A stretch of 25,271 nt of DNA from a virus, in IMG/VR virus record IMGVR_UViG_3300045930_000288, positions 1-25,271 of that record; one strand, given 5' to 3'. The position numbers and the translations under genes are program-made. How positions within the stretch are numbered: position 1 is the first letter of the stretch; the number at the start of each line of letters is the position of its first letter. This document shows, one piece after another, positions 1,027 to 21,902 of this stretch. Below the pieces are notes generated by a model. The model did no database searches and was not told where the DNA came from. It saw nothing but the letters and a program-made list of their open reading frames with translations.

Positions 1027-1131
1027 TTTGCTAGTCCGACTAGCAAACTGGATTTTGAATCCGGTATCTCCCCCGCTGCGATGAATCTTGCGGGGCCCGG
1101 CTGCGGAGTGGTTTGCGAGTCGGACTAGCAA
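1027..1131. repeat. repeat cluster B-A-B upstream of the membrane protein gene
   Basis: Family B is a palindrome with arms TTTGCTAGTC and GACTAGCAAA: a perfect copy is at 1027-1047, and a copy with one change in the left arm is at 1112-1131. Family A, CCCCGCTGCG ... CGGGGCCC with a GATGAATCTT centre, lies between them at 1070-1099 and folds into a GC-rich hairpin. The A-then-B order recurs at 1541-1615, so the gene between them is bracketed by direct composite repeats. Both families also occur in gaps between virion genes in this window. Confidence 0.8.
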
Positions 1132-1144
1132 TCGGGCGGAAAAG

Positions 1145-1172
1145 TTGACGCAAACGGCAGGGGCCCTATAGT
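1145..1172 (+). promoter_or_regulatory. sigma70-like promoter of the membrane protein gene
   Basis: TTGACG (1145-1150) and TATAGT (1167-1172) are 16 bases apart. The ATG of the gene begins only 7 bases after the -10 box, so transcription should start at or beside the start codon. The GGCGGG before the ATG could otherwise serve as a weak ribosome binding site if the start lies further upstream. Confidence 0.6.
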
Positions 1173-1178
1173 GGCGGG

Positions 1179-1556
1179 ATGTCGAGACTGCAGCCGGAAG
1201 CGCCGCCGATCGTGATCAACACGCTGCCCAAGCACGTGCGGGAAGCGGCCACCGCTGGGCCGCGGCGGGACACGCTGGCGCCGTTTCGCACCCGGCTGCA
1301 CGAGGCCAATTTGTGGCAGACAGCGACGCTGGCCACGGGGCTGATCTTGTGCCTGGTCATCTGGCCTTTCGTGGCGATGTTGTTGTCGGACGCCGCGCGA
1401 CGCGCCGAGCTGGTTGGCGAGCGGCCGCCCTTCGAGGGACTGGGCGGCGGCATTTTCTGGCTCGGCATGGCGCTCGTCGCCATTTCACAGATTCAGGCGA
1501 TCGGCGTGGCAATCCGCGAAATTCACCTGGCGCAGGATTGCCCCCCGCCGCGATAA
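1179..1556 (+). CDS. small two-helix membrane protein, candidate moron
   Basis: The 125-residue protein has a soluble, basic N-terminal part, two hydrophobic helices at about 48-70 and 89-111, and a short tail. It is the only sizeable gene on the plus strand and has its own promoter, next to the attachment site at the end of the late operon. This is the layout of a moron, a gene expressed from the prophage independently of the lytic programme. The stop codon TAA (1554-1556) and the last residues CPPPR are encoded by a copy of repeat A, so the original 3' end was replaced or truncated by the repeat. No family was recognised. A holin is possible from size and topology, but no endolysin neighbour is seen. 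Confidence 0.6.
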   Translation: MSRLQPEAPPIVINTLPKHVREAATAGPRRDTLAPFRTRLHEANLWQTATLATGLILCLVIWPFVAMLLSDAARRAELVGERPPFEGLGGGIFWLGMALVAISQIQAIGVAIREIHLAQDCPPPR

Positions 1557-1615
1557 ATCTTGCGGGGCCCGCTCTGCGCCTCCGCGGGTAGTGTGTTTGC
1601 TAGTCCAACTAGCAA
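1541..1615. repeat. composite repeat A-B between converging genes
   Basis: Repeat A (1541-1571, CCCCGCCGCG ... CGGGGCCC) is followed by palindrome B (1596-1615). The A copy supplies the TAA stop of the plus-strand membrane gene, and the B copy supplies the TAG stop (1611-1609) of the minus-strand gene that converges on it. The pair could also act as a two-way terminator. Confidence 0.8.
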
Positions 1616-1899
1616 GTGGTTTCCGAGCGGCGGAGCGCTTCGTCGAGGAGGCCGTCGAGCGTGAGGGGCAGGCCGGCGGATAGCGCGTGGCCCAGGGCGG
1701 CCAGTTTGGTGAGCAGGCCGGCGGCGTCGTAGGCGCGCTTGAGCTGCGCCAGGATCACGCGGCGGCGCCGCCGGCAGCCGGCCACGCCCCAGACGTTCAT
1801 GCGGTGGGCCAGCTCGATGCAGCGGCGGCAGTACTTGCGCCTGGGCGCAGCGCCAATTTGGGCCAGCAACTGCATGAGCGCGATTCCGGGGCGCGTCAT
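1609..1899 (-). CDS. small cysteine-motif protein, last gene of the tail operon
   Basis: The 96-residue protein has a CxxC pair (Cys24, Cys27) and a third cysteine at 42 just before a run of five arginines, so it could bind a metal with one further ligand. A predicted helical C-terminal half follows. Its ATG overlaps the stop codon of the preceding gene (ATGA), so the two are translationally coupled and it belongs to the late operon. It ends in ETTC followed by TAG, and the TAG comes from palindrome B. I do not recognise a family. The basic, cysteine-bearing character would suit nucleic acid binding or a structural zinc knuckle in a tail accessory protein, but neither is established. Confidence 0.6.
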   Translation of the reverse strand: MTRPGIALMQLLAQIGAAPRRKYCRRCIELAHRMNVWGVAGCRRRRRVILAQLKRAYDAAGLLTKLAALGHALSAGLPLTLDGLLDEALRRSETTC

Positions 1900-2588
1900 G
1901 CGATCGGCACGGTGTAGAGGTTTTGCAAGTAGGTGTTGCCGTCGCCGCCGGTGCCAAAAATGTTCACCCAGCCAAACCCCTCGGCATTGGTGAGCACGTA
2001 GCCGGCTGTACCCGACACGACGAAATCAATCTGGCCCATCGTGCTGCGGGCCAGCCACGGCTCATCTTTCAGATAGATGCCGTTGTCGTTGAGAGTTTTC
2101 GAGAGCGTCGTACCGCCGTGAATTCCGGAGGTGCCGGCCAGGTTGAAGAATCCCACGCCGGCCGTTAAATCATCATCTTCTACGGAGCCGCCGTTGTGCG
2201 GAAACCCGGCAAAAAAACCAGGGTTCACCGTGACGCCGGTGAGCCCGGAAAGGTTGTTGACGTATTCCAGCGTACCGGTCAGACTCGCGCCGGCGTCGCA
2301 GGTCAGGTGGAATCGGCCGCTCCACTCGCCCTCGGTAATCGCGTCCCACCAGGGCGGGTCGGAATTGGCGGCCAGCCAGTGAATCAAAAAGTAGTCGTGA
2401 ATGTTACCGGAGAATTCGACCGGGCCCTCGTGGACGGTCAGCCCCATCGCGGTGTAGGTGTTTTTGATGCCGACCAGTGCACCGCCCGTGATCGATCGGG
2501 ACTGGTTGGCGCTCCAGATCAGCACGTCGGCGCCGGCACCAACCTGGCAGCAGTCACCACCGGGCGGCCAGCGTGTGATGCAGGGCAT
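1896..2588 (-). CDS. virion protein, probable tail fibre or tip accessory
   Basis: The 230-residue protein is rich in Gly, Thr, Asn and aromatic residues in alternating short hydrophobic stretches, as in beta-rich receptor-binding or fibre proteins. The N-terminus has CITRWPPGGDCC with clustered cysteines. No catalytic motif is visible. The upstream gene ends 5 bases before its ATG, and the ribosome binding site is the purine-rich codon run (GAGGAAGAGGAAGAG) for the glutamate tail of that gene. Its place at the distal end of the tail module suggests an adsorption structure. No family was recognised, so the function is inferred from position and composition. Confidence 0.55.
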   Translation of the reverse strand: MPCITRWPPGGDCCQVGAGADVLIWSANQSRSITGGALVGIKNTYTAMGLTVHEGPVEFSGNIHDYFLIHWLAANSDPPWWDAITEGEWSGRFHLTCDAGASLTGTLEYVNNLSGLTGVTVNPGFFAGFPHNGGSVEDDDLTAGVGFFNLAGTSGIHGGTTLSKTLNDNGIYLKDEPWLARSTMGQIDFVVSGTAGYVLTNAEGFGWVNIFGTGGDGNTYLQNLYTVPIA

Positions 2589-2593
2589 GGCGG

Positions 2594-3298
2594 CTACTCT
2601 TCCTCTTCCTCAAAAAAGTCGTCGGGTAAGCAGCTCGATTCATCGACCACAAATCCGGCGGCTTCGTCGTCGGCCAGCGGACCGTCGTGCCACGAGACGC
2701 GCAGGCCCGTGCCGGGTTCCAGCTCGGGCTCGTCGTCGGCGAACCGCAGGAACCAGTCGAACACGTCGATAAACTGGCCGGTGGCCTCCCAACCGTCGTC
2801 CGTCTTTCTCCAAATCTCCATCAGCGCCGAGCCGTTTTGGGCCAGCGTCTGGGTCAGCTTGCCGTAGTAATGCGTGGGCGCTTTGAGCACCCACCAGACG
2901 CCGTAGTCATTGTCGTTGGCGTCATCGCCCAGGCCCCGCTGCCAGAACACGACAATTTTCGTATCGACCAGCAGGTAACTGTCGTGATAAGCGACCCACT
3001 GCTGATCTTCGCTCCGCTCCTCGTTGGAAAATTCCCGGTCGCCCAGCTCGGCGACAAAGTGCGCGTCGAGGAATTTGATCGGGAAAACCGTGCCGGCTTC
3101 GGGATACCCGACGGGGTCTTCCTCCGGATCCTCCGGCTGCAGCGGCTCACAGGTGACGGCCCAGCGGACTTGCACAAACCGGTCGAGCACCGGCTCGCGG
3201 ATGCGGCGGAGCTGCTGGACCTCGGACTCGAGGGCGGCCAGGCGGTGGGCCATCCGTGACAGGTCGGCTTTCAGGCTTTGGAGTTGAACGTCATGCAT
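2594..3298 (-). CDS. structural protein with N-terminal coiled coil and acidic tail
   Basis: The 234-residue protein begins with a heptad-like helix (about residues 1-37, LQSLKADLSRMAHRLAALES and on), followed by a mixed alpha/beta domain rich in Trp and Asp, and ends in FFEEEEE. The coiled coil suggests oligomerisation. The start is coupled to the preceding gene through TAATG, where the stop and start share one base. Its glutamate codons double as the ribosome binding site of the next gene. Position among distal tail genes argues for a virion component, perhaps a connector between the tail hub and the fibres. No known domain was recognised. Confidence 0.6.
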   Translation of the reverse strand: MHDVQLQSLKADLSRMAHRLAALESEVQQLRRIREPVLDRFVQVRWAVTCEPLQPEDPEEDPVGYPEAGTVFPIKFLDAHFVAELGDREFSNEERSEDQQWVAYHDSYLLVDTKIVVFWQRGLGDDANDNDYGVWWVLKAPTHYYGKLTQTLAQNGSALMEIWRKTDDGWEATGQFIDVFDWFLRFADDEPELEPGTGLRVSWHDGPLADDEAAGFVVDESSCLPDDFFEEEEE

Positions 3299-5634
3299 TA
3301 GGGGCGGGCGGCCATCAGGGCCGCCGGTCGGCCGCGGAGTTGTTTGTCTTCGGGGCGGCGGTTCAAGAGCTCGAGGGTTTCCAGCTCGGCAAAGGCGGTG
3401 GTGACCTGCATCGTGGGCGGCGGCAGCTCGGCCGAATCGCCGCCCGGAATCGTGACGACGATCTCGCTGATCACGGTGCCCAGCGACCGGACGCTGTGGG
3501 CGGATCCGAAATTGACGATGTACTGGCCGATCGCTAGCTGGCTGGTGACGATCGGCGTCGTCAGCTGCAGGCTGCGGCGGGTCTGGCCGTAGTATTCAAA
3601 AACCTGCTGGGCGCGGGCCTGCAGCACGGGCACGTCGTCGTTGATCCAGCCGCCAGCAGCGCAGCGGACCGGCTGCCGCGTCTCGAGATCCAGGCCGACG
3701 ACCGTGCCGGGCACCAGAAAATCCTGCTTGTACTGGTCGCCGGCTTCGATCACCAGCTCGCGGACGCCGCCCGGCGCTCTTTCGAACGCGGTGAAGTCGT
3801 CGGGATACACGCCCTCGGCGTGGCGATCGTCGAGCAGGCAGACGGTAAACAGGGCGTCGCGCCAGTCCCAGCGGCCCAAAAACGGATCGACCGGCAGCCG
3901 GATCATTTCGGAAAAAGCCAGCACGTGCTGCGGCTCGCCCGTAACGTGCAGCAGGACGGCCCGGTCCTGACGGGGAATTTCCACGCGGGCCGACCAGTGA
4001 CGATCGCGGTTGAGCGTGGTTTGTTCGAGGGCCGAGCCCGTGCCGATCTTTTCGACCTGGACGTAGGGGGCGTCGGTCGGTTCGCCCTCGTGCTCGCCCT
4101 GCCAGTCGGGCGTCAGGAACAGGACGAACGCGGGAATCCGGTTGTGGGGCCCGGCGGCGATCTGCTCGGGCGGCGTGCGGCCGGTGATCGTATCGCCCTG
4201 GCCGGGGACGTATTCGACGAAGGCGATCGACCGATAGTCGAAACCGTCGACCAGCGGCAGCGTGGTGGCCAGCTCGAGCTCGCGCGGGCAGACGCGGTGG
4301 TAGGAGGCCAGAAAGGCGTCGTTTTCCAGAAACACGGGATGCGCGGGCCCCTCGCCCAGGCCGTCGAACGCGATCTGGTCCCACAGGTCGGGGATGGCGA
4401 ACCGGCGGAAGACGGCGAACAGCCGGTCGGTGTGGCGCACCTCGGCGTTGGCGGCCTGCTGCTCGTTTCGGGGCAGCTCGGCGTAGTCGTCGGCCCCGCT
4501 GTAGCCGGCCTCGTACTCGGCTTCCCGCGCCAGCGGCCAGCCGATGACCAGCGAGCCGTCGGCCGCGCTGAGCGTGCAGGTGCTGGTGCGCCGGGCCCCG
4601 CGGACGCGGGCCTGGTCGATGATGCCTATGTCGGAATCCTTGATCGCGTAGCGGTTGTCGGGGGCCAGGTCGGCGGCCGTGCTGTCGTTGAGGGTCACCT
4701 GCTGCTGGTTGCCGAACAGCGTGCCCAGGTCGGTGGTGATGTCGCTGCCCAGGAGCGACACGGGCGTCAGAAACACGGCTTCGAAATCGTCCTCGGGGAG
4801 CACCGTCAGGTGCCAGGATAGCATCCGGCTCTTGGGCATCAGCAGGTTGAGCAGCTCGGCCGTGGAGTGGCCGGCCGGATCGATGACGGGCGTGTCCCAG
4901 TCGGGCAGGACCTGCTCGGTGTCGGGATCGAGGGCCAGGTCGAACGCGCCGAAGCCGGCCGGCCGCTCGTGCGCGCAGAGGTAGGCGGCGATCGTGCGGC
5001 TGCGCCACAGCGCGGCGTCGTTGTGTCCGACGTTGGGGGCGAACACAAACGTGCCCTGAAAGCCGAGCTGATTGGAGCGGTTGCCGCTGGGCGCGCCGAC
5101 GGAGCTCTCGCGATTGAAGACAAAGGGCGTGCCCGAGCGTTTTTCGCCGCCGTCGGAGTCGAGCCAGGTGGCGCCGCGGATGGGGTGGCGGTAGAGGGCG
5201 TGCTCCAGGCCCAGGCAGACCAGCGGCTGCTTGCCGCTGAGCGTGTAGACGCTCTGGCCGTTGCTCTGCCCCGTTTTCAGCAGGCCCTCGCTGTGGAACC
5301 CGTCCATTTCGATCGTGCCGTACCAGGCCAGGTCGGCCGGGTCGCCCTCGCTGCCGGTCAGGGCGTGGCCGCCGATCAGGATTTTGACATACAGGCGTCT
5401 GACATTGGTCAGCCGGGCGACGGTCTTGAGTGCGAACTCACCCTGCCGCAGGCCGACGCCGTATTCCCAGACCAGCGTGGCGGTGGACAGGCTGGGGGCC
5501 AGCCGCCAGGCGACCTCTTCGGCCCACAGGTACGGGATCCGGGTCCAGTCGTCGGTCCACTTTTGTTTGAGGTAGACGGCGTGCGGCCGGGCCGTGCGGA
5601 GCGTTTTGGACGTTAAATTGATATTCGTGGCCAA
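3298..5634 (-). CDS. large distal tail protein, candidate tail hub
   Basis: At 778 residues this is one of the largest proteins here. It lies downstream of the tape measure, where siphophages encode distal tail, hub and tail-associated proteins. The first ~110 residues are strand-rich (WRLAPSLSTATLVWEYGVG), and residues ~200-330 contain a segment like hub domains of other tail proteins (STAELLNLLMPKSRMLSW). A second set of beta-rich segments follows toward the C-terminus. No peptidase or hydrolase motif was found. The track start is TTG at 5634 with little Shine-Dalgarno support, and a dispersed repeat fills the leader, so the true start may differ by a few codons. The hub assignment rests on position and general character. 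Confidence 0.65.
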   Translation of the reverse strand: MATNINLTSKTLRTARPHAVYLKQKWTDDWTRIPYLWAEEVAWRLAPSLSTATLVWEYGVGLRQGEFALKTVARLTNVRRLYVKILIGGHALTGSEGDPADLAWYGTIEMDGFHSEGLLKTGQSNGQSVYTLSGKQPLVCLGLEHALYRHPIRGATWLDSDGGEKRSGTPFVFNRESSVGAPSGNRSNQLGFQGTFVFAPNVGHNDAALWRSRTIAAYLCAHERPAGFGAFDLALDPDTEQVLPDWDTPVIDPAGHSTAELLNLLMPKSRMLSWHLTVLPEDDFEAVFLTPVSLLGSDITTDLGTLFGNQQQVTLNDSTAADLAPDNRYAIKDSDIGIIDQARVRGARRTSTCTLSAADGSLVIGWPLAREAEYEAGYSGADDYAELPRNEQQAANAEVRHTDRLFAVFRRFAIPDLWDQIAFDGLGEGPAHPVFLENDAFLASYHRVCPRELELATTLPLVDGFDYRSIAFVEYVPGQGDTITGRTPPEQIAAGPHNRIPAFVLFLTPDWQGEHEGEPTDAPYVQVEKIGTGSALEQTTLNRDRHWSARVEIPRQDRAVLLHVTGEPQHVLAFSEMIRLPVDPFLGRWDWRDALFTVCLLDDRHAEGVYPDDFTAFERAPGGVRELVIEAGDQYKQDFLVPGTVVGLDLETRQPVRCAAGGWINDDVPVLQARAQQVFEYYGQTRRSLQLTTPIVTSQLAIGQYIVNFGSAHSVRSLGTVISEIVVTIPGGDSAELPPPTMQVTTAFAELETLELLNRRPEDKQLRGRPAALMAARP

Positions 5635-5652
5635 GGGAGCAGCAGCAAATTT

Positions 5653-5738: not shown

Positions 5739-5744
5739 TAGTTG

Positions 5745-5763
5745 GCCCGTCGCGGCTCGCGAC
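5745..5763. repeat. dispersed hairpin D abutting a stop codon
   Basis: GCCC followed by GTCGCGGCTCGCGAC forms a 6-bp stem (GTCGCG/CGCGAC) with a 3-base loop. On the minus strand it begins directly after the TAA stop of the 107-residue gene. A second copy with compensating changes (GTCGTGGCTCACGAC, pairs kept) sits at the end of another gene at 19122-19140. Conserved pairing between copies supports a role as folded RNA or DNA. Confidence 0.7.
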
Positions 5764-6087
5764 TTAGCCCTTGAGGACGACGGTGGCGGTGGCGTTGGCG
5801 CCGGTGGATTGGATCCGCAGGAAGCCGTGCGCAAACACGGCCGACGGGACGTCGAACCATTTGCTGGCGGTGACGCTGGGGGCCAGGGCCGCGTTGGTGT
5901 TGTCGTGGATCGGCAGGAAGCTGCCGTCGGCCGTCTCGCAGCCGTTGAACGTCAGCACCGTGACGCTGGCGGGGATCTTGATCGACAAGCCGGCATAGTT
6001 GCGGATGTCGAGTACGCCGCAACTGCCCAGAGTGGCATGCAGCGCGACCGTCGTTGTTATCCATTTGCGTTGGATCGTATCGGGCAT
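5764..6087 (-). CDS. small beta-rich virion protein
   Basis: The 107-residue protein alternates short hydrophobic strands and loops with no predicted membrane segment, as expected for a small jelly-roll or Ig-like virion domain (for example SIKIPASVTVLTFNG and FLRIQSTGANATATVVLKG). The C-terminal segment resembles decoration or fibre-accessory modules that end in a final strand. It lies between the beta-helix fibre gene and the candidate hub, which fits a fibre attachment or decoration role. Repeat D begins immediately at its stop codon. The start is ATG with a weak ribosome binding site. No family was identified. Confidence 0.55.
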   Translation of the reverse strand: MPDTIQRKWITTTVALHATLGSCGVLDIRNYAGLSIKIPASVTVLTFNGCETADGSFLPIHDNTNAALAPSVTASKWFDVPSAVFAHGFLRIQSTGANATATVVLKG

Positions 6088-8521: not shown

Positions 8522-11194
8522 TTACCGCACCCCCCGCCGGAAAGTGCCTGCCGTCCGCGGCCGGCGAAACGTGCCCGCGGTGGCTGGCCGGCGAAACGTG
8601 CCGGCCGTGGTGGGTCGCCGAAACGTGGCCGCGACGGGAAACTTTTTGGTGTGCACGCCGATCGCCCCGACCGACAGCTCCACCAGGCCCACCGCGTGGG
8701 CGGCCTGCTTGGGCGTGGCAGCCGCGATCACGACGAAGTCGAGCAGGCCGATGCCGGCGGCGACGCCGTGGACCGGTTCGGGTGTCACGGCCAGCACATC
8801 GATCTGGCTGGCCGGCAGCGGCGCCGCTTTGGCCGCAGCCGGCGACACCGCTGCCAGCTCTACCTGAGCGATTCCCGCTGCCGCGGCATGACTGGCCGCC
8901 GGCGCCACGCCCGTGAAATCGAGCAGCCCCTGGCCACTGGCGAAACTTTTGGTGGTGGCGGGCGCGACGCTGGTCAGGTCGACGACGACGGGGCCGCTGG
9001 CGGCGTCGTGCTTGCTGGTTGGCGTGACGTGTACCACGTCGATCAGACCCTGGCCGCTGGGAACCGATTTGCTGCCGGTGGGGGCACTGGATACGAAATC
9101 CACCGCGCCGATCCCGCTGGGGGCCCCTTTGGCGATGGTCTGTGCGGGCACGGACCCGATGGCGGCGACGACGGGCGGAACGGCCGCGTGTTGGGGCGTG
9201 ATCGAGGGGGTGACCAGGTCGACCAGGCCTTGGCCGCTGGCGGCGCTGAAGTTCACGGCCACGGCCGGCTGGGCAAACCAGACGCGGCCGAACTCGTGGA
9301 CCACGGTTTTGGAGCCGGCGGCGGCGAGGGGCGTCACATCGATTAACCCTTGGCCGCTCGCCGCCGCCTTGGCCGCTGTGGGTGCCACATGCACCAGGTC
9401 AATGCGTCCCAAGCCGGCGGCGGCCTGGTTTTGGGTGCCGGCGGGGGCCACGCCCGTGATGTCGAGCAGGGCCGGCGACACGGCCGCCCGATGATCGACG
9501 GTGGTCGTCGGTGCCGTCAGCTCGAGGAGCTGCGCATCGCCCTGCTGCCAGCTGACGCGGGGGACGGCAGCGAGGGGCGTGATCTCGATCGACTGGGGTG
9601 GGACTGGCGCCAGCGTGAGCGCCGCGGGGCTCTTGGGTGTAATTTCCAACAGGCCGAACGGCGAAGCGGCGGTGATGCCGCCGACGGTAGGGGCCACGGC
9701 TGTGATGTCTACTAGCCCCTGGCCGCTGGCGGCTGCTTTGGCGGACGCGGGCGTGATCGCCCGGATGTCGAGGAATGCCGGCGCTACGTCGGCCGTTATG
9801 CCTGACTCCGACGAATAGGTAACTTCCAGATACGGGTCGCTGCCCGTTCCTGACTGATCGGCGCTATAAAAGGCGGGCCCGCTCTGGTTGTCGGCGGCCC
9901 AAGTGGGTGGCGTGTCGTCGTAATCGCTCGACAACCTCACGGCGAACTTGCTAACACCCGCGTCGCTGATGGCAGCTATCCCCGTCCCATTAAAGTTCCA
10001 ATCGCTGTAAGCGTTGATACTTAGGCTGTCTTCATCCACTGGCGTCGCAAAGGACGTGCTACCGATCTGGTCAAAGTCCGCCGTGGCGATGGCGGTCGAG
10101 GACGCTGGACTGCTGCCGACGATATAAATCAGTTGATCGAAATTGGGATCAGTGCTGAAATTGTTGCTGTGTTTGAGGGCAATCTTGGCCGCCGAAATGC
10201 TCGCGTCGTTCGGCAAACTCGAAGTGTCGAAGAGCAGAAATGACCGGCCGATCCGGTTCCATTTGTCGGTATTGGTGTCGTTGGACTCAACGGTCAAGAA
10301 AAGTTCGGTTCCACTGTCATCGGCCACGGTGCCAGACGCCGCATCGTGGAGCGTGGACCAATCGAAGCCTGACGGGTCGCTTTCGGTCCCCTTGTCGATA
10401 TATCCGTCGACGCTCGTGCTTTCTGGATGCGGGTCGGGGTAGAAAGTGCTCGTCGTATCGGCGTAAACCGGGTAGGTCGCGCCCCGCCAGAATTGCCTCG
10501 GTATGACCTTCACGCCGACAAATCGCGTACCGACGATGCGGCCGCGCAAGTGGATGGCGGCGCGCTTGCGCCGTGAATCCCAGACCAATGGCTGCTTGAT
10601 TTTCAGGCCGCGGAAGCTGCCGGTGGTGAATGAGAGGCCGTGATCGATGTCGCGGTTGTTGCGAAAATCGGCTTCCTGGGCTGACCGGCCGCGGCCGGTG
10701 CTTTCGAGGATCGGCAGGCCGCCGAAGTCGATCTCGATCGGGACCTCGACCGGTCCCTGGCCCGGCGGTTGGCTACGGAAGACGACCAGGTCGCGGATCT
10801 CCTGCTCGTGGAGCTGCACCAGCCGGTCGGCGTTCAGGCCGGGAAACGCCAGAGCGAACAGGATGCCGGCGGCGGTGATGACGCCGGCGACCGGCGACGC
10901 GGTCGGGTAGCGCTTGGCAATTTCGACCGGCGCGTCGGCCATGACGCGCCTGGTCCAAATGTCGTAGCGGTTAGTGCTCTTGATGACGGTCCAGTCGTTG
11001 GCCAGTGTCGGCACGTCCAAACTGTATGGCGCGCGGCTGACGCTGAACGTGCCGCCGGCTTCGCGCGGCGACAGATCGATCCGATCCCAGCCTGAATCTG
11101 CCAGCCAGTTGTGCCACTTCCCCCACAGCCGTGCGCGCGTAGCTCCGCCCTGGAGTTGCTCGGCGTCGGCGTTCCATGTGAGCGGGGCTAACAT
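8522..11194 (-). CDS. 890-residue repeat-bearing virion protein with DNRLRE/CBM96-like domain
   Basis: The N-terminal ~245 residues are mixed and probably anchor the protein to the tail. Residues ~258-462 look like a DNRLRE/CBM96-type beta-sandwich: RSFLLFDTSSL, then SAAKIALKHS and a closing YLEVTYSS. Residues ~470-855 are about nineteen imperfect 20-residue repeats of the form G-hydrophobic-hydrophobic-D/E-hydrophobic-x-x-hydrophobic-A-P followed by a small-residue spacer, often AASGQ. The last 34 residues are four copies of TFRRPxTAG. The build suggests an extended fibre or stalk with a carbohydrate-binding domain. The C-terminal half is compositionally extreme (Ala, Val, Pro, Gly). The start is ATG at 11194, with a weak Shine-Dalgarno site. 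Confidence 0.7.
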   Translation of the reverse strand: MLAPLTWNADAEQLQGGATRARLWGKWHNWLADSGWDRIDLSPREAGGTFSVSRAPYSLDVPTLANDWTVIKSTNRYDIWTRRVMADAPVEIAKRYPTASPVAGVITAAGILFALAFPGLNADRLVQLHEQEIRDLVVFRSQPPGQGPVEVPIEIDFGGLPILESTGRGRSAQEADFRNNRDIDHGLSFTTGSFRGLKIKQPLVWDSRRKRAAIHLRGRIVGTRFVGVKVIPRQFWRGATYPVYADTTSTFYPDPHPESTSVDGYIDKGTESDPSGFDWSTLHDAASGTVADDSGTELFLTVESNDTNTDKWNRIGRSFLLFDTSSLPNDASISAAKIALKHSNNFSTDPNFDQLIYIVGSSPASSTAIATADFDQIGSTSFATPVDEDSLSINAYSDWNFNGTGIAAISDAGVSKFAVRLSSDYDDTPPTWAADNQSGPAFYSADQSGTGSDPYLEVTYSSESGITADVAPAFLDIRAITPASAKAAASGQGLVDITAVAPTVGGITAASPFGLLEITPKSPAALTLAPVPPQSIEITPLAAVPRVSWQQGDAQLLELTAPTTTVDHRAAVSPALLDITGVAPAGTQNQAAAGLGRIDLVHVAPTAAKAAASGQGLIDVTPLAAAGSKTVVHEFGRVWFAQPAVAVNFSAASGQGLVDLVTPSITPQHAAVPPVVAAIGSVPAQTIAKGAPSGIGAVDFVSSAPTGSKSVPSGQGLIDVVHVTPTSKHDAASGPVVVDLTSVAPATTKSFASGQGLLDFTGVAPAASHAAAAGIAQVELAAVSPAAAKAAPLPASQIDVLAVTPEPVHGVAAGIGLLDFVVIAAATPKQAAHAVGLVELSVGAIGVHTKKFPVAATFRRPTTAGTFRRPATAGTFRRPRTAGTFRRGVR
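8525..8626 (-). repeat. 27-bp coding repeats (TFRRPxTAG, four units)
   Basis: Three full 9-residue units with T, A or R at the variable position, plus a final partial unit TFRRGVR, end the 890-residue protein. The DNA copies are near-identical around CGAAACGTGCC. The tail is strongly basic, unlike the rest of the chain. Confidence 0.85.
8645..9787 (-). repeat. 60-bp coding repeats, about nineteen 20-residue units
   Basis: Aligning the chain at each hydrophobic strand (GLVDITAVAPT, GLLEITPKSPA, LLDITGVAPAG, GRIDLVHVAPT, GLIDVTPLAAA, GLLDFTGVAPA and others) gives a nearly constant 20-residue period. DNA around the SGQGL codons (CCCTGGCC.CTGGC on the plus strand) is almost unchanged in several units, which makes expansion or loss by recombination possible. 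Confidence 0.8.
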
Positions 11195-12484: not shown

Positions 12485-13027
12485 CTAGCCGTTGAAGAAG
12501 AGCTTGGCTTTCCAGGTGTCGGCGGCGGTGCCGGCGAAGCGGAGATCCTTGCTCGAGCCGCCGACGGCCGGCGTATTGAGCGTGAAGGTCTCTTGATCGG
12601 GGTCGGTGAGCACCATGGCGATCGTGGTGCCGGGATAAAAAATGGCCGTCTTGCTGGCCCCGAACAGGGCATAGCCGTTGCCGCCCTGCGGGCCGAACGT
12701 GACGCCGCCGGCGGCGTTGCCGGGGTCGAATTGCAGGATGATGCCGACCAGTTTTTTGGTGCTCTTGTCGACCGTCTCGCTGGGGTCGCGGGCGGTGGGG
12801 GCGGCGGTCAGGTCGAAATCCTTGGTCGAGCCGCTGAGCGTCCACGACAGGTCGACCACTTCGCCGGCGATGGGCGGCTCGCTGTCGGCGTTGAGCGACA
12901 GGACCAGCTTGGGCTGGGTGTAGCTGCGCTGGTTGCCGCCGGCCTCGGACAGGGGCGCGCTGTCGCTGTCGATCTCCTCGCGGAGCGACAGCTGGAGGTT
13001 GACTTGGGCGGAAAGTGCGTAGGTCAT
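12485..13027 (-). CDS. tail structural protein, 180 residues
   Basis: The protein is beta-rich with regular polar/hydrophobic alternation (VNLQLSLREEIDS, PKLVLSLNADSEP, VGIILQFDPGNA, KTAIFYPGTTIAMVL). It is soluble and has no visible catalytic motif. The size and strand pattern would fit a tail tube-like or distal tail disc protein. Its gene lies two genes after the tape measure, and the start follows a long dispersed repeat that fills the whole gap to the preceding gene. The start is ATG at 13027. The exact role cannot be read from the sequence. Confidence 0.6.
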   Translation of the reverse strand: MTYALSAQVNLQLSLREEIDSDSAPLSEAGGNQRSYTQPKLVLSLNADSEPPIAGEVVDLSWTLSGSTKDFDLTAAPTARDPSETVDKSTKKLVGIILQFDPGNAAGGVTFGPQGGNGYALFGASKTAIFYPGTTIAMVLTDPDQETFTLNTPAVGGSSKDLRFAGTAADTWKAKLFFNG

Positions 13028-13035: not shown

Positions 13036-13121
13036 CAGGGGGTTCGGGGTTCGCGATTCGGGGTTCTGGGGAGCGAATCGGTTGAGGCCCCTCAGTCCCG
13101 AGTCCCTAGTCCCGAGTCCCG
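13036..13121. repeat. dispersed repeat E (TTCGGGGTTC / CCCGAGTCCC)
   Basis: One half is GGTTCGGGGTTCGCGATTCGG and onward; the other iterates CCCGAGTCCCTAGTCCCGAG. It fits between the stop codon at 13122 and the next start at 13027 with almost no spare bases. This looks like a common bacterial intergenic iterated repeat. Confidence 0.75.
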
Positions 13122-15201: not shown

Positions 15202-15383
15202 TTACTGGTCGCGTTGGAACAAAAGTTGGTGGACGTGGATGGGCTCTTGATCCGCCTGGCCGGTAGCCAGGGCGGCCAGGTCGGCTAGGGTGGGGCGGTA
15301 GTGAGGATCTCGGCCGCGGGCCCAGCGCTGGAAGCGGAGCCAGCGGGTGATGCCCGGTCGGCGATACTCGATTCCCGCATCGC
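15202..15383 (-). CDS. -1 frame extension of the tail chaperone gene
   Basis: After the A9 run the -1 frame continues for 60 residues as SDAGIEYRRPGITRWLRFQR and onward to LLFQRDQ. This has far more protein-like composition than the zero frame, which turns into Ser/Ala/Pro-rich sequence. Its stop (15204-15202) ends 6 bases before the tape measure start, filling the gap that the zero-frame stop at 15285 leaves open. The fused product would be about 311 residues. It could also be expressed from a GTG just before the A run, but no ribosome binding site supports that. Confidence 0.7.
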
Positions 15384-16136
15384 TTTTTTTTTGCACCAGG
15401 CCAGCAGGGTTTCTAAATCGCAGAGCGTGTCGAGCACGCGCTTGGTCAGCTCGTCGCTGAACAGGCCCAGCAGGGCCGCCTCGACGCGCGACAGGCGATA
15501 GTTGGCCGACAGGGCCAGGACGGCGCCGTCGATCTGGCCCTGAAAATCGAACCGCGAAAAATCGGCCTCGCTGGCCGTGGCGTCGCGGACGCGGAGCCAG
15601 CCCTCGGCCAGCTCCCACAGGGCGGCGTAGCGGCCGATCACGCCGCTGGTCGTCCATTTGCCGTCGGCGGCCAGGTCCAGCCGTTGCGGCAGCTGCACGG
15701 TCCAGGTCAATTCGCTTTGGTCGCCTTCGCCGCGCTCGCTGTACGAACGCGCCAGCGGCACAATCCACGGCTGACCGTCCTGCAGGCTGACGGCTTCGCC
15801 GGCCAACAGCTTGTCGCGGGCCAGGTCCAGCGGGCCAGGCGGGGCATCGGTGTAGTAGCCGACCCAGATTCCAGGGTCGGCTTGGGCCCCGCCAGCGTCA
15901 GCGCAGCGGGGGGGAACACGTCGCCAGGTCTGGGACTTCTTGTGGTAGCCGCACTGGCCGGGGCTGTAGGTGTCTTGCTGCGCGCAGACGACGCCGCTTT
16001 GCCCATCGAGGGCGTGGTCGACCGGCGTGCAGTCGATGCTCTGGCCGTCATCGAAGGCGTAGGCCAGGCCCAGCTGTGCGGCTTCGGCCGGCGTCAGCGT
16101 GCGGCGATCGGGGATGAAGTAAAAAAACGTGCGCAC
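15285..16136 (-). CDS. probable tail assembly chaperone, zero-frame product
   Basis: The zero-frame protein has 283 residues and lies between the tail tube and tape measure genes, where lambda-like phages encode gpG. The start is placed at GTG 16136, because the longer frame upstream overlaps another gene and is low-complexity; the GTG has GGGG about 8 bases upstream, supplied by repeat A. Residues 1-60 (FFYFIPDRRTLTPAEAAQLG) are mixed, and the C-terminal part is helical. At codons 249-251 (AAA AAA AAA, 15392-15384) a -1 slip gives a 311-residue fusion. Residues 75-85 (PPRCADAGGAQ) come from a copy of repeat A inserted in frame. This gene is larger than typical gpG, so the identity is inferred from position and the slippery site. 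Confidence 0.6.
   Translation of the reverse strand: MRTFFYFIPDRRTLTPAEAAQLGLAYAFDDGQSIDCTPVDHALDGQSGVVCAQQDTYSPGQCGYHKKSQTWRRVPPRCADAGGAQADPGIWVGYYTDAPPGPLDLARDKLLAGEAVSLQDGQPWIVPLARSYSERGEGDQSELTWTVQLPQRLDLAADGKWTTSGVIGRYAALWELAEGWLRVRDATASEADFSRFDFQGQIDGAVLALSANYRLSRVEAALLGLFSDELTKRVLDTLCDLETLLAWCKKKAMRESSIADRASPAGSASSAGPAAEILTTAPP
15384..15392 (-). promoter_or_regulatory. A9 slippery site for programmed -1 frameshifting
   Basis: The zero frame reads TGC AAA AAA AAA GCG, which contains the A AAA AAA heptamer, an efficient -1 slippery sequence. A shift there joins two well-formed coding stretches. A base-calling or assembly error in the homopolymer could mimic this, so the run length should be confirmed. 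Confidence 0.65.
15884..15914. repeat. repeat A copy inside a coding sequence
   Basis: GGGCCCCGCCAGCG ... GCAGCGGGGGGG is the same element found between other genes. The 31 bases contribute residues PPRCADAGGAQ to the chaperone protein and keep the reading frame. It shows one more G than its relatives, which is what keeps the frame open. Confidence 0.85.
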
Positions 16137-16144
16137 AGTGTTTT

Positions 16145-16190
16145 CCCCGCTGCGTGCGGGGACCCAATAGTTGCTAGTCGGACTAGCAAA
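16145..16190. repeat. short repeat A plus palindrome B at a gene start
   Basis: CCCCGCTGCG ... GGGGACCC (16145-16165) is followed by palindrome B (16171-16190). On the minus strand the A copy reads GCAGCGGGGAAAACACTGTG and so supplies the ribosome binding site of the chaperone gene. Confidence 0.75.
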
Positions 16191-16203
16191 CGGGGCTCGG
16201 GGT

Positions 16204-16515
16204 TTAGGGCTCGCCGGTGCCGACGATTTGTTTGCTGTGTTGTTTCTCGCCGGCGTGTTTCTGCGCTTCGGCGGCGCAGCGGTCGGCCAGGTCGTTGCGG
16301 AATTTGTGGAAGCGATCACCGATGGCGGCCAGCCGGCGGTCGTATTCCGCGGGCGGCTGTTGTTTTTGCTCGAGCTGGCCCAGCTCGGCCGCGAGGGCCA
16401 GCAGCTCCTTGACCTCGCCGGGCACGAGCTGCGGCACGAGGGCCAGGGCCTGCAGGCGGGAGTAGGGGCCGCAGCGGGTCAGGACGGCGACGCAGGCCTG
16501 GGTGTCATTGGTCAT
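16204..16515 (-). CDS. small helical protein of the tail chaperone region
   Basis: The 103-residue protein is nearly all helical with a Leu/Glu/Gln-rich coiled coil (about residues 30-60) and a charged C-terminus. It lies between tail tube and chaperone genes, so it may be the short gpG-like partner or another tail assembly factor. Its ATG (16515) sits inside an iterated CCAATGA heptamer repeat, so start codons occur in all three frames every 7 bases; the frame used is the one with an open product. An upstream GAAGGA may act as ribosome binding site. No family was recognised. Confidence 0.6.
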   Translation of the reverse strand: MTNDTQACVAVLTRCGPYSRLQALALVPQLVPGEVKELLALAAELGQLEQKQQPPAEYDRRLAAIGDRFHKFRNDLADRCAAEAQKHAGEKQHSKQIVGTGEP

Positions 16516-16529
16516 TGGTCATTGGTCCT
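16504..16529. repeat. heptamer repeat F (GTCATTG) at a start codon
   Basis: Three units of GTCATTG plus a diverged end supply, on the minus strand, ATGs at 16522, 16515 and 16508 in three different frames. Only the middle one opens the 103-residue gene. Confidence 0.8.
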
Positions 16530-16540
16530 TCGTCATTCGC

Positions 16541-17514: not shown

Positions 17515-17523
17515 GGTGTCCTC

Positions 17524-18009
17524 TTACGCGGCGCGTGTTCGGGTGGCGGTGCGGCCCAGCTTGGTGAACAGGTAGTGCTGGAAAAAGCCGGCCTCGCGGG
17601 CGAGCTCCTGGGCCTCGGCCTGGCTGACGGTGGTCAGCTCGCGGCGCATGTTGACGTTGCTGTGCGGGTTTTTGAAATTGAAGACCGGGGCGTGCATGAT
17701 CACGCGGACGCGGGCCTCGGCGCGGGTGGCGGTGGCCACGATCCGCGGGCTCGAGGCGTCGGTGCGGCCCTGGCCGCTGTAGACCAGCGGGTAGGTGTGG
17801 CCGAACTTTTTGTATTTGCGGAATTCGTAGTGCGGGTTGCGCTTGGTGTAGCCGTACTCGGTGGCGCCGCGGTGCGTGAAGTGTTTGCGGAAAAAGTGCT
17901 GGTGCCAGTACTGGCCCATCAGCCGCACGGTCTCGCGGTTGATGGTGTTCAGCTCGCGCTGCATCAGCTTGGGCGTGGGGCCTCGTTTGGTGATGATGAT
18001 CTCGTACAC
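17524..18009 (-). CDS. head-tail joining protein, HK97 gp10-like
   Basis: The 161-residue basic protein opens with a helix of the kind seen in HK97 gp10-type tail completion proteins (LMQRELNTINRETVRLMGQYWHQHFFRKHF). Arg/Lys/Tyr-rich strands follow, with PHYEFRKYKKFGHTYPLVYSGQGR near the middle. It lies just before the tail tube gene, the normal place for such a protein, which closes the tail end that meets the head. The start is GTG 18009; its ribosome binding site GCGGGGG, 8 bases upstream, belongs to repeat A. The family assignment is from recognition without a profile search. Confidence 0.6.
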   Translation of the reverse strand: MYEIIITKRGPTPKLMQRELNTINRETVRLMGQYWHQHFFRKHFTHRGATEYGYTKRNPHYEFRKYKKFGHTYPLVYSGQGRTDASSPRIVATATRAEARVRVIMHAPVFNFKNPHSNVNMRRELTTVSQAEAQELAREAGFFQHYLFTKLGRTATRTRAA

Positions 18010-18017
18010 TGTGTTTT

Positions 18018-18047
18018 CCCCCGCTGCGATGAATCTTGCGGGGCCCG
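18018..18047. repeat. repeat A copy supplying a ribosome binding site
   Basis: On the minus strand the sequence runs GGGCCCCGC ... GCAGCGGGGGAAAACACAGTG, and its final GTG is the start codon of the joining protein. The same GCAGCGGGG-AAAACAC-n-GTG string stands before the chaperone gene at 16136. Confidence 0.85.
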
Positions 18048-18095
18048 CGTCAGTTGGTTGATTGGTCGGTTTTCATAAGTTGCCGTGATGGCTCA

Positions 18096-18632
18096 TCACC
18101 GGACGCCGATGCCGTATTGCAGCTCGAGGATGGCCCAGTGGTGGTCGCCTTCGCCGACCGCGTCGTCCTTCGTCGAGCGCAGCGGGCCGTGGAAGGTGAC
18201 CAGGTCGATCGCCAGGTAGCCGGCCTGATAGGCCAGCTCGAGCAGCTCGTCGATGATCACGCCGATCGTGTTTTTGAATTGCCGCTCCAGGGCCGCGACG
18301 TCGCCGGCCAGGTGGGCCGGGACGTTTTCCTCGAGGGCGATGGCCAGCTTGCCGGCCTCGGGGTAGGTCTCGGTGGCCACGCGGGCCTTGCTATAGCCGG
18401 CCTGGTTGGCCGTCATCAGGATGGCGAAGGGCCGCAGGCCGATGATGTCGTCGGCCGTATAGGCGTCCTGGTCGTTGGGCGGGACGGGCAGGTCGTCGAT
18501 GAAGATTTTGGCCAGGGCGGCGGCCTGGTTGGTGGCCCCGCACCAGGTGCGGAAGCGGGCGCAGTCGGCCAGCGTGAGCCGGAGGTTTTCCTCGGCCAGC
18601 GTGATTCCGCCTTCGGCTGCTTCCAGGGGCAC
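18096..18632 (-). CDS. head-tail or tail terminator-type structural protein
   Basis: The 178-residue protein is mainly helical in its first half (ITLAEENLRLTLADCARFRTWC) and mixed in the second, with a final DHHWAILELQYGIGVR strand. Small proteins of this size between capsid and tail tube genes usually form the head-tail interface or tail terminator. The start is GTG at 18632, without a good Shine-Dalgarno site, and the segment from Gly9 could equally be the true N-terminus. It is bordered upstream by repeat A. No family was firmly recognised. Confidence 0.55.
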   Translation of the reverse strand: MPLEAAEGGITLAEENLRLTLADCARFRTWCGATNQAAALAKIFIDDLPVPPNDQDAYTADDIIGLRPFAILMTANQAGYSKARVATETYPEAGKLAIALEENVPAHLAGDVAALERQFKNTIGVIIDELLELAYQAGYLAIDLVTFHGPLRSTKDDAVGEGDHHWAILELQYGIGVR

Positions 18633-18655
18633 TGTTTAGGCTCGGATTTAAGGGT

Positions 18656-18685
18656 GGGCCCCGCCGGCTTTAATGCAGCGGGGGG
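18656..18685. repeat. repeat A copy between joining-protein genes
   Basis: GGGCCCCGCCGGCTTTAATG then CAGCGGGGGG keeps the stem but has a diverged centre. In the operon direction it lies 10 bases after a stop codon, in the orientation opposite to the copy at 18018. Confidence 0.8.
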
Positions 18686-18696
18686 AAACGACGGAC

Positions 18697-19080
18697 TCAC
18701 CGGCGGCGGTAGCCGGGCTGGGCGTGGTCTTCGATCGCGGACCGCTCGAGGATCACGGACACCATGCCGTCCTGGTCGGACGGCTTTTCGGTGATGGCGT
18801 AGTCGACGTTCTCAAACGTCACGATGGCGTTCATGGGCAGGGCGGCGATGCCGCCGAAGCGGCTGGCCTCGTCGGTGGTGAACGTGACGCGGCGCTGGCG
18901 GACCTGCTTGCGCGTGTTGCCGATCTGCTTTTCGACGGTCCGCTCCTTGCCGATCAGCGCCGTGAGCGTGCGGGGCGCGTCCTCGCTCTTGAGGCGCACT
19001 TCGATCGACTGGCCCGCTGTTTCCAAGAGCAGCGGGCTGCCGACGCCGGCGATCAGTTCAGAGTGGAAGGACAATTTCAA
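18697..19080 (-). CDS. head-tail connector-type protein
   Basis: The 127-residue protein contains beta segments (SIEVRLKSEDAPRTLTALIG) and a basic helix-like stretch (KQIGNTRKQVRQRRVTF), and ends in a strand and short Arg-rich tail. It is placed where lambdoid phages encode connector or head completion proteins. The start is TTG 19080 with a GAGGGGG element close upstream. Repeat A lies 10 bases after its TGA. Identity is from position and size; no motif assigns a specific family. Confidence 0.55.
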   Translation of the reverse strand: MKLSFHSELIAGVGSPLLLETAGQSIEVRLKSEDAPRTLTALIGKERTVEKQIGNTRKQVRQRRVTFTTDEASRFGGIAALPMNAIVTFENVDYAITEKPSDQDGMVSVILERSAIEDHAQPGYRRR

Positions 19081-19121
19081 GCCCCCTCAAGGGCGAAAAG
19101 TAGGGCGAAAAGTAGCAATTT

Positions 19122-19140
19122 GCCCGTCGTGGCTCACGAC
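19122..19140. repeat. dispersed hairpin D, second copy
   Basis: GCCC plus GTCGTGGCTCACGAC forms the same stem as at 5745-5763 with compensating base changes. Its last base is part of the TAG stop of the capsid-associated gene, so the repeat abuts or supplies that stop. Confidence 0.7.
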
Positions 19141-19901
19141 TACGCGGCGGCGACGACGCGCGAGCTGGGCGACAGCGGAACGTAGCGCAGATACCACTTG
19201 ATGACACCAGCGCGGGCGGCGCTGCTGTTGAGCTTGATCGTGCCGATGGGGCACAAAAACTGCGTCGGCTGCGTGGCAAAGGCATTTGCCTCTTTCACGA
19301 ATCCGGCCGTCACGGGCGTAAAAATGGCCGTCGTGTTGATCGACTGGTACGAGGTGCCGGCGGCGTCGGCGTCGATGTCCACGGCGGCGGCGTTCATATC
19401 GACCGTCGCGGCTGGCGTGGTGGTGGTCAGCGTGAGCTTGACATTCGTCGTGCCGGCGCCGATTGTCGTGGTGACGATGCCAGTGATCTCGACAACCTTG
19501 ATGGGGCCGCCGCTGATGGTGAATAGATCGTCATCACCGCTGAGCACCGCGCCGTCGGACTTTTCGCAGGACCGCGGGGCGGCCAGGATTGCGTCCTGGC
19601 AATAGGCCAGCACCTCGGCCAGGCTGACGCCGTTGCCGTAGGCGGCGGCTGCCGGATAGGTCACCACTCCGGCCGTGCCGGCGAGGATGTCCTCGATATA
19701 GCGGAGCACCTCGGCCATCGACACGCCGTTGCCGGCAGCGGCGGCGGCGGGGTAGGTGGGGATGCCGGCCGTGCCGGATTGGCCGGCCTGGATGAATTCA
19801 AGCCGCTCGAGGATGGTGCCGTCGGCGTTGGCGGCGACGTTGGACGTGGCCACGCCGTTGCTGTTGTTGTCCTGGCCCAGAAAACGCAAACGATTGAACA
19901 T
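19140..19901 (-). CDS. capsid-associated protein with two 32-residue repeats
   Basis: The start is placed at ATG 19901 (MFNRLRFLGQ), because the upstream extension has unrelated basic composition; the product is 253 residues. Residues 43-74 and 75-106 are tandem repeats sharing GTAG..TYPAAAA.GNGVS.AEVL, a module I recall from phage and environmental viral structural proteins. The C-terminal half is Thr/Val/Ala-rich and strand-forming. The gene directly follows the major capsid gene, which fits a decoration or head-associated protein. The stop codon overlaps hairpin D. The family is inferred. Confidence 0.6.
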   Translation of the reverse strand: MFNRLRFLGQDNNSNGVATSNVAANADGTILERLEFIQAGQSGTAGIPTYPAAAAAGNGVSMAEVLRYIEDILAGTAGVVTYPAAAAYGNGVSLAEVLAYCQDAILAAPRSCEKSDGAVLSGDDDLFTISGGPIKVVEITGIVTTTIGAGTTNVKLTLTTTTPAATVDMNAAAVDIDADAAGTSYQSINTTAIFTPVTAGFVKEANAFATQPTQFLCPIGTIKLNSSAARAGVIKWYLRYVPLSPSSRVVAAA

Positions 19902-20002
19902 GGGAAACGTGCTTTCAAAAAAAATGAAGACTCGAAAAATTCGATTGGGCCGGCGTTGCGATCGGCCGGCCACCATTCATTTGGCTGGTGAATTCGCGGG
20001 GC

Positions 20003-20032
20003 GGGCCCCGCAAGATTCATCGCAGCGGGGGG
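20003..20032. repeat. repeat A copy after the capsid gene
   Basis: GGGCCCCGCAAGATTCATCG then CAGCGGGGGG matches the consensus fully and lies 2 bases from the major capsid protein stop codon. In the operon direction it could form an RNA hairpin just behind the stop of the most highly expressed gene. Confidence 0.85.
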
Positions 20033-20034
20033 CA

Positions 20035-20997
20035 TTACGTGGTGATGTTGCTCATCACGTCCCACATGGCGGAGTACTTGATCTTTTCGTCCACCTGGTG
20101 GCGGACGCGGACCACGTCGCTGCGGGTCTCTTCCGTGTAGTAGGTCTCGACCAGGCCGCCGGGCTGGCTGCCGTCGCCGGCCCAGTGGAACGTGTGACCC
20201 AGGCAGGGCTCGATAATCGACTGGCTGGTAGCCACCACGCCGACGGCGGCGTATTCGTCGCTCCAGATATGGGTGGGGGTGGCGGTCTGGCCTTCGTCGG
20301 CCGAGTTGTAAACACCCTCGGCGACGATCACCTGCTCCAGGTCGAACACGGCGGCCAGCATGGCCGTCGTGACGTCGCGGGCCTTGATCTTGTCGCCGGC
20401 GCCCTGAGCCGCGATGTTATCGAGCACCTGCTCGCAGCGGCGGACGTTGCGAAACACCTTCTTATTGAAGACGATCGCGTTGGGCCACATGCCGGTGGCC
20501 GCGAAGATGCGGAGCACGGCGGCCTCGACATCGTCGATCGGGGTGGCGTTGGCCACGTCGTCCCACTCGTTGGTAATGGCGGTGGGCGAGTAGCTGCCGG
20601 GGAAGAGCAGATCCTTGACGCGGACCTCGGCCTCGAGCAGCACCATGTGCAGCACCAGGCGGGCGGTGGCCGCCTCGGCGTCAACATAGTTGGCATATTT
20701 GCGGGCCATGTTCTGGTCGACCGGGCCCTCCAGACCGTACTCGTCGGTGGCGTAGGTGTCCTTGCTGAACGACCAGTCGATGCGGTTGTAGTCGCCCTTC
20801 GCGCCGCGCTTGACGTTGGCGCGCTTGAGCAGCTGGGCGATGGGGATTTTGCCGAACGTGTCGCCGGCCAGGTCCACGTTGAGGATCGGCAGGACGCGGT
20901 TGGCGATGAATTTCATCCGGTTCGCCTCGAGGTCGAACTCCAGCATGGAGCCCAGATCGGGGCGAAGGGTGGATAGCGAGGTGGACGGTCCGGGCAT
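20035..20997 (-). CDS. major capsid protein
   Basis: The 320-residue protein lies in the canonical capsid position after protease/scaffold and cement genes, has HK97-fold-like composition, and carries typical capsid stretches: an N-terminal arm and E-loop-like region (LPILNVDLAGDTFGKIPIAQ), a spine helix (DAEAATARLVLHMVLLEAEV), and a P-domain segment (AVLRIFAATGMWPNAIVFNK). The C-terminus shows the pattern of capsid proteins that bind scaffold in the procapsid (VETYYTEETRSDVVRVRHQ). The start is ATG with GGAG 9 bases upstream. A cleaved delta domain is not obvious. A search would tell which capsid family it belongs to; the call is made on several agreeing features. Confidence 0.85.
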   Translation of the reverse strand: MPGPSTSLSTLRPDLGSMLEFDLEANRMKFIANRVLPILNVDLAGDTFGKIPIAQLLKRANVKRGAKGDYNRIDWSFSKDTYATDEYGLEGPVDQNMARKYANYVDAEAATARLVLHMVLLEAEVRVKDLLFPGSYSPTAITNEWDDVANATPIDDVEAAVLRIFAATGMWPNAIVFNKKVFRNVRRCEQVLDNIAAQGAGDKIKARDVTTAMLAAVFDLEQVIVAEGVYNSADEGQTATPTHIWSDEYAAVGVVATSQSIIEPCLGHTFHWAGDGSQPGGLVETYYTEETRSDVVRVRHQVDEKIKYSAMWDVMSNITT

Positions 20998-21097
20998 TGG
21001 TGGTTACTCCCAGTTCCCCCTGAGAGTGCAAACGGTGAATGAAAAAGCCGACGGGTTTTGGTGGCCACCGCCACCCGCCAGCTACAGGGGGCAGGGA

Positions 21098-21808
21098 TTA
21101 GACAACGGTCCAGGTGCCGTTGTAGGGACCGGCGATCCAGTCGCCGTTGCCGTCGGCCGTGAGCGTGACGTGCTCGGCCTCGTCGTCGGCCGTGATGTAG
21201 GCGTCGTCGGACTGCTTGGCGCCGTTGATGTAGATTGCGCCCGCGGCGCCCGGATCGACCCGCAGCTCCTGGGCGGCCGACACGGAAAAGTGGAACGTGT
21301 CACCCGCCACGGCGTCTTGGGGCAGCGTGCAGGTGTGGGCGGCGCCCAGGCCCGTGTTGGAAAACGTGCCATTGCGCATGTCGCGCGTCAGCGTGGTGGC
21401 CGTGCCGGTCAACGTGACGTGCATGGGGGGCGGCTCGTCGGTCTTCTCGGTGCGCAGGATCTCGATCACCGAAGCGTTGCCGCTGGCCGCTTCGAGCGCG
21501 ATGCCGATACGGCGGTGGCTGACCACGTCGTTGATCTTGCCGCTGGCGGCGCCGAACACTTCGGCGTATTGGGAGATAGCGCCGGCGGCGATCATCTGGC
21601 AGGTGCCGGGGCAAGTTTTCAGCCGCACGGAAACGTCTCTAACGACGCTGTCGTTGAAGACGTGCTCGTTGAGGGTGCCCAAGTCGGCCTCGTTGGCGCC
21701 GGCGGCCACCAGGTAGCCGCTGGTGAGCTTGACGCGGGCATATTGGGCGATGGCGGCGGTGCCGTCGACCCGGAATGTTTTGTTGAAGCCGTCGGATTGC
21801 TGGCTCAT
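21098..21808 (-). CDS. DUF2190-like capsid cement protein with C-terminal beta domain
   Basis: The first ~120 residues follow the pattern of DUF2190-type capsid cement proteins (VDGTAAIAQYARVKLTSGYL and IGIALEAASGNASVIEIL), small jelly-rolls that stabilise the shell. The remaining ~110 residues form a separate beta-rich domain (HVTLTGTATTLTRDM ... GDWIAGPYNGTWTVV), likely exposed on the capsid surface. The gene stands between scaffold and major capsid genes. The start is ATG with a GAAAGG-type site. Similar N-domain/C-domain fusions exist in other phages; the second domain could aid binding to host or environmental surfaces. Confidence 0.7.
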   Translation of the reverse strand: MSQQSDGFNKTFRVDGTAAIAQYARVKLTSGYLVAAGANEADLGTLNEHVFNDSVVRDVSVRLKTCPGTCQMIAAGAISQYAEVFGAASGKINDVVSHRRIGIALEAASGNASVIEILRTEKTDEPPPMHVTLTGTATTLTRDMRNGTFSNTGLGAAHTCTLPQDAVAGDTFHFSVSAAQELRVDPGAAGAIYINGAKQSDDAYITADDEAEHVTLTADGNGDWIAGPYNGTWTVV

Positions 21809-21846
21809 GGGGGGAACCTTTCGGGATAAGTGGCTGGTGTGTTGTT

Positions 21847-21902
21847 GGGCCCCGCCAGCGCTAGCGCAGCGGGGGGAAACTTTGCTAGTCGAACTAGCAA
21901 AA
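21847..21902. repeat. composite repeat A-B between protease/scaffold and cement genes
   Basis: Repeat A (21847-21876, GGGCCCCGCCAGCG ... GCAGCGGGGGG) stands next to palindrome B (21881-21901). This is the same pair as at 1541-1615 and 16145-16190. In the operon direction B comes first, then A, both after the stop of the scaffold frame. Confidence 0.85.

Follow-up and report, generated by a model that had tools for sequence, protein, structure and literature searches.

Analysis of the 25,271-bp IMG/VR virus record IMGVR_UViG_3300045930_000288 (the window, taken at its full length), which represents an uncultivated tailed phage, revealed three families of short palindromic repeats, A, B, and D, together with heptamer tandem arrays (Table 1). 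On balance, A, B, and D appear to be REP-like interspersed palindromic repeats that were inserted in the late operon and have survived at gene edges. REP-like elements have mostly been treated as a feature of bacterial chromosomes, from which the pattern itself is known; the phage late operon is a little-described setting for it. The analysis directly supported the insertion of the repeats relative to homologues, their enrichment at gene boundaries, their lineage specificity, and the presence of unrelated repeats at similar junctions in relatives.

Table 1. Positions of the repeats and of the genes referred to in the text
Feature	Position in the window	Strand	Remarks
HTH_3 repressor-like gene	440..709	-	Product of 89 aa; candidate B-binding protein if B is an operator
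B copy 1	1027..1047		TTTGCTAGTCCGACTAGCAAA; perfect palindrome; non-coding, between the HTH gene and ORF 1179-1556
A copy	1067..1099	+	Flanked by two B copies
B copy 2	1111..1131		Substitution at one arm position; 14 bp upstream of promoter-like site 1145-1172
A copy	1539..1572	+	Contains TAA stop (1554-1556) of ORF 1179-1556
B copy 3	1596..1615		Contains TAG stop (1609-1611) of - strand ORF 1609-1899
D copy	5742..5763	-	Hairpin GTCGCG-AGC-CGCGAC; directly past TAA (5764-5766)
Two heptamer arrays (13039-13070, 13094-13121)	13039..13121		Gap before gene 12485-13027
A copy	15882..15917	-	In-frame part of the gene that ends at 15285; accounts for about 11 residues absent from homologues
A copy, degenerate	16138..16165	+	Just 5' of GTG start 16137
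B copy 4	16171..16191		14 nt past stop of gene 16204-16515
Heptamer array (AATGACC)	16504..16537	-	Contains ATG at 16515
A copy	18011..18048	+	9 nt upstream of GTG start 18009
D copy	18080..18099	-	Hairpin GTGATG-AGC-CATCAC; contains TGA stop 18096-18098
A copy	18653..18689	-	13 nt past stop of gene 18697-19080
D copy	19119..19140	-	Hairpin GTCGTG-AGC-CACGAC; G common with TAG 19140-19142
A copy	20001..20036	-	Directly past stop of the major capsid gene
Major capsid protein (phrog_1005)	20035..20997	-	Gene annotation
A copy	21845..21880	-	Abuts B; missing from the orthologous gap of G001
B copy 5	21881..21901		7 nt past stop of the S49 protease gene; also at the orthologous gap of G001
S49-type head maturation protease (phrog_53)	21908..23296	-	Gene annotation
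Portal protein (phrog_21)	23303..25006	-	Gene annotation

Family A is palindromic (consensus CCCCGC-n13-GCGGGGCCC; predicted stem-loop energy of about -12 to -17 kcal/mol), and seven copies with no more than two mismatches were found in the window against 0 expected, in addition to one degenerate copy. Some copies on opposite strands showed 100% identity over 30-31 nt. Five other IMG/VR contigs gave one A match each, and these were taken as GC-rich chance hairpins. Family B is a 19-bp perfect palindrome (consensus TTGCTAGT-n3-ACTAGCAA; predicted energy of about -9 kcal/mol) with five window copies at no more than one mismatch, compared with 0.01 expected in shuffles. Three further B copies are located upstream in the same phage, in a second record (L007) that matched window positions 18723-25271 at 100% identity and extends the phage upstream. 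Another three are carried by G001 (21 kb; L014-L017), a collinear relative with 75, 68, and 51% identity in portal, protease, and capsid, respectively. Across these 11 copies the arms are nearly invariant and the 3-nt centre is free. Within IMG/VR, B was multi-copy in this phage and G001 only; other contigs with the arms, most of them AT-richer, had single copies, which were taken as background, and B was rejected as a common viral motif. Family D consists of three copies of a 6-bp stem with the loop AGC and the tail GG(G)C(C)AA (predicted energy of about -6 to -9 kcal/mol). The heptamer units AATGACC, AGTCCCG, and GGGGTTC were found in gaps. Bacterial heptamer tandem repeats (STRR-like) likewise have 7-nt tandem units in gaps, and the arrays described here differ from them in lying in a phage operon. 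A preliminary description of this DNA had counted at least eight repeat families. The count was not supported, since the candidates other than A, B, D, and the heptamer arrays were two-copy or coding, with matches of chance quality.

The association of the repeats with gene boundaries, which the preliminary description had proposed to compare with random placement, was far above expectation in permutations using hand-curated gene calls. B was intergenic in 10 of 11 copies (expectation, 1.73), and seven of the 11 lay no more than 15 nt from a stop codon (expectation, 0.77); A was intergenic in six of eight copies (expectation, 0.71). All three D hairpins begin in or immediately past a stop codon, in gene sense. 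The repeats had been described as filling the gaps between genes; this is mostly so, but the A copy at 15884-15911 lies inside a gene. The stop codons assigned to A and B were confirmed, as was the sharing of one with D, and the start codon attributed to a further repeat, F, does lie inside a heptamer array. A role of A as a supplier of ribosome binding sites was not borne out: the GTG starts concerned lie 7-9 nt from A and have GGGGAAAACACnGTG in common, with no clear Shine-Dalgarno sequence. Intrinsic terminators were also rejected as an explanation; A and D are not followed by a T run, and predicted terminators occurred at chance number in the regions scanned, where the B copy at 1027-1047 was the only repeat among the terminator-like sites listed. 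In an Rfam search, the repeats matched none of its known RNA families.

Because phage late operons are compact and comparable across many relatives, each insertion and each empty site can be read directly. For the gene pair 18096/17524, the median gap in 15 relatives was 0 nt (maximum, 33 nt), most of these relatives having stop and start codons that touch or overlap. At this junction of the window, D, a spacer, and A together occupy 86 nt. The gap of the gene pair 18697/18096 was 3 nt in two of three relatives and 210 nt in the other, compared with 64 nt, including A, in the window. In G001, the protease-decoration gap has B and lacks A, the capsid-next gap lacks A, and the u1599-u2087 gap lacks B. 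The gene with the in-frame A copy encodes about 11 extra residues compared with its homologues in L057, L090, L122, and others. These empty or shorter orthologous gaps and the homologues without the in-frame residues indicate that the repeats are mostly lineage-specific insertions, a reading also supported by the identical A copies on both strands. The alignment with uninserted relatives suggested in the preliminary description thus agrees with its view that insertion took place at gene ends and starts. The B copy common to the protease-decoration gaps of the window and G001, kept though the flanks of both phages no longer align well, may be older or may have been inserted twice.

REP, BIME, and REPIN elements (PMC3733652, PMC3116915) resemble the repeats of the window in several respects: they are 20-40 nt stem-loops with several families per genome, they lie near gene 3' ends and sometimes supply the stop codon, they occur occasionally in ORFs, and copies are found beside older ones. 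Chromosomal REPs are found 3' of ORFs, to which they often contribute the TAG stop, and in some cases within them (PMC3733652), and new REPIN copies insert beside existing elements (PMC3116915). Members of the GTAG/CGTC super-families occur in many chromosomal copies, and the GTAG type is associated with a RAYT transposase. A, B, and D are likewise palindromes of 20-40 nt in several dispersed copies, mostly intergenic and close to ORF 3' ends. REP-like insertion is therefore favoured, since the 3'-end position, the TAG stops, the occasional in-gene copies, and the insertion beside existing elements match these descriptions. On the other hand, the setting in a phage late operon and the small copy number are unlike those elements, and the unpaired GTAG/CGTC tetranucleotide tag beside the stem is absent from the flanks of A, B, and D, which are for this reason not filed as GTAG/CGTC REP members. 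The missing tag argues against a REP-like nature, as do the symmetry and near-invariant arms of B, which are more like those of a protein-binding site, and the fact that most copies are undatable. Rickettsia palindromic elements, which are CGTC-tagged (PMC3733652), resemble the A copy at 15884-15911 as palindromes readable in frame within a gene, whereas the repeats described here have no CGTC tag and mostly occupy gaps.

The features of B just mentioned raise the alternative, in our view rather unlikely, that B is a genome-spread phage operator and that A and D are separate REP-like inserts. A putative dimeric HTH repressor would bind B in an early control region as well as at the ends of late genes, silencing or stopping transcription in the lysogen. 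Perfect dyad symmetry with a free centre is consistent with such binding, and B would be comparable to the stoperators of Cluster A mycobacteriophages (PMC6550527), which are also short sites repeated across a phage genome. Stoperators, however, are 13-bp asymmetric sites, mostly in one orientation relative to transcription, at which the known immunity repressor binds and transcription is stopped (PMC6550527), whereas B is a perfect palindrome of 19 bp with a candidate binder only. Two B copies adjoin the HTH_3 repressor-like gene, one of them just upstream of a promoter-like site, but the HTH gene could not be located on the fragment of G001. Retention of one B copy at an orthologous gap despite poorly aligning flanks fits an operator; it is, however, just one comparable gap with B common to both phages, and another B copy lies within the 3' end of a gene. 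The distribution of B also points to a phage-own element, as it is multi-copy in two phages only and the centres searched gave 0 exact matches in 84,980 genomes. In this respect B resembles the SAS and ESAS of Cluster K mycobacteriophages, which are short repeats, specific to phages and placed at gene boundaries; two host genomes lack exact SAS copies, and ESAS include 17-bp inverted repeats, presumed to be protein sites (PMC3203893). SAS are oriented and lie 3-7 bp upstream of the start codons of non-structural genes only (PMC3203893), whereas most B copies are at stops and in a virion operon. In its specific form, with B as a regulatory palindrome of the phage's own, bound by the phage HTH repressor at the early control region and late gene ends as a symmetric counterpart of stoperators, we consider the proposal unlikely. 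Were B to prove an operator, stoperator-like silencing through a symmetric site would be added for a new phage group, one distant from the mycobacteriophages.

Functional intercistronic RNA elements that tune virion gene expression through 3' end protection, RNase sites, or translation decoupling appear distinctly improbable. A, B, and D all fold, and unrelated hairpins are found at the same junctions in relatives, but RNA structure after stop codons showed only a weak rise across 908 genes of the clade, and on this signal the idea that hairpins generally follow stops in the clade was rejected. Moreover, A occurs in both orientations and within a gene, and the 18096/17524 junction has no room for a hairpin in most relatives. 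D comes with covariation (three of six stem pairs changed on both sides) and a constant position on the stop codon in gene sense; nevertheless, it comprises three copies only, and 23 of 500 shuffles reached equally good covariation. Finally, it is highly improbable that the repeats are linkers, short shared gene-border sequences promoting homologous exchange of gene modules: despite their border position and the B copy at one border common to two phages, a length of 19-36 nt is low for homologous recombination, none of the copies was seen at a module swap breakpoint, and the genes flanking B are orthologous and collinear between G001 and the window.

Under REP-like insertion, the reading that we favour, the palindromes and the neighbouring heptamer tandem repeats would insert into the late operon, mobilised in trans by host transposases, perhaps of the RAYT/Y1 kind. 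Each stem-loop copy could be accommodated at a gene end with nothing lost, in some cases bringing a new stop codon, and new copies would tend to land beside older ones, as with A adjoining B. Copies would persist where they are least harmful, at or a few bases from stop and start codons; an occasional copy would survive as an in-frame insert, and purifying selection would leave boundary copies only. The hairpins may also have a mild effect on mRNA 3' ends or translational coupling. The moving enzyme and carriage of the repeats by the host are inferred: no Y1 transposase (Y1_Tnp) was found in four phage records sampled from the group, and no relative was found when a host was sought by capsid alignment against genome contigs. 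The preliminary description had suggested a repeat-rich host. This gained no support, because B with Y-S-R centres, which cover five of the six centres seen, had 0 exact matches in 84,980 species genomes and the host genome was not found. Plasmid searches with A and with the repeats of two relatives, L059 and L124, returned nothing convincing. From the style of the heptamer repeats, the host may be a planctomycete.

Dispersed families located mainly in gaps were found in 10 of 78 portal relatives, compared with one of 27 unrelated contigs; several of the ten families are short, and the excess is suggestive. The clearest cases were L059, with paired palindromes in the protease-decoration-capsid gaps, L115, with heptamer hairpins at gene boundaries, L088, and L124. 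The last has GTAG-tagged REPs (GTAGGGTGGGC-n3-GCCCACC, stems variant) and an octamer array of its own at the junction that holds D and A in the window. An IMG/VR scan for this GTAG-REP gave 67 stretches and led back to the same phage group (L163 and L124); the contig of L163 is among the multi-copy ones, and L163 encodes the same portal, S49 protease, and capsid families as the clade. Since the repeats at a given junction differ markedly in some relatives, the operons lend themselves to following where elements are inserted and retained. They make it practicable to test whether repeats are targeted to gene ends or simply tolerated at them, and could also be used to examine whether phages carry REP-like repeats between hosts. 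The earlier generalisation that tailed phages keep late operons free of such elements needs qualifying, as gap repeats are present in these four relatives and in the isolated Vibrio phage VPHZ6 (L129). In VPHZ6, which was met as a control, a heptamer-type repeat (TTAACGAAAGCACGAA) occurs at 11 places, mostly in annotated gene gaps, and was matched by that record alone in the phage collection.

Several other features of these phages were noted. The upstream extension in L007 contributes a Mom-family DNA modification gene (L007:816-1586), which lies just 5' of the packaging genes and is kept in G001 (71%). G001 also has a CsrA gene, a potential regulator of interest, and after it a sigma-70 family gene that ends with its stop codon inside a B copy (L017:9576-10383). 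Window positions 860-910 resemble the T-arm and acceptor portion, the 3' half, of a tRNA gene and are perhaps an attachment site; ARAGORN reported no complete tRNA. Window positions 8522-11194 encode a protein of 890 aa that has internal repeats, in units of about 20 aa, and C-terminal TFRRPxTAG repeats. Two families first taken for dispersed repeats, in L127 and L058, showed CRISPR-like spacing instead. In the CRISPR-like array of L127 (12-776), which lies at the end of a viral contig with a portal relative, a 36-37 nt repeat (GTAACAGTAACCGAACAAACCAAATGACGATGCAAG) occurs 11 times with a spacing of about 73 nt, and the array of L058 (2450-3039), on a viral contig of the same group, has nine repeats (CTCGAAGTGTCTGGTCGAATCGATTGATGC) at 60-74 nt spacing.
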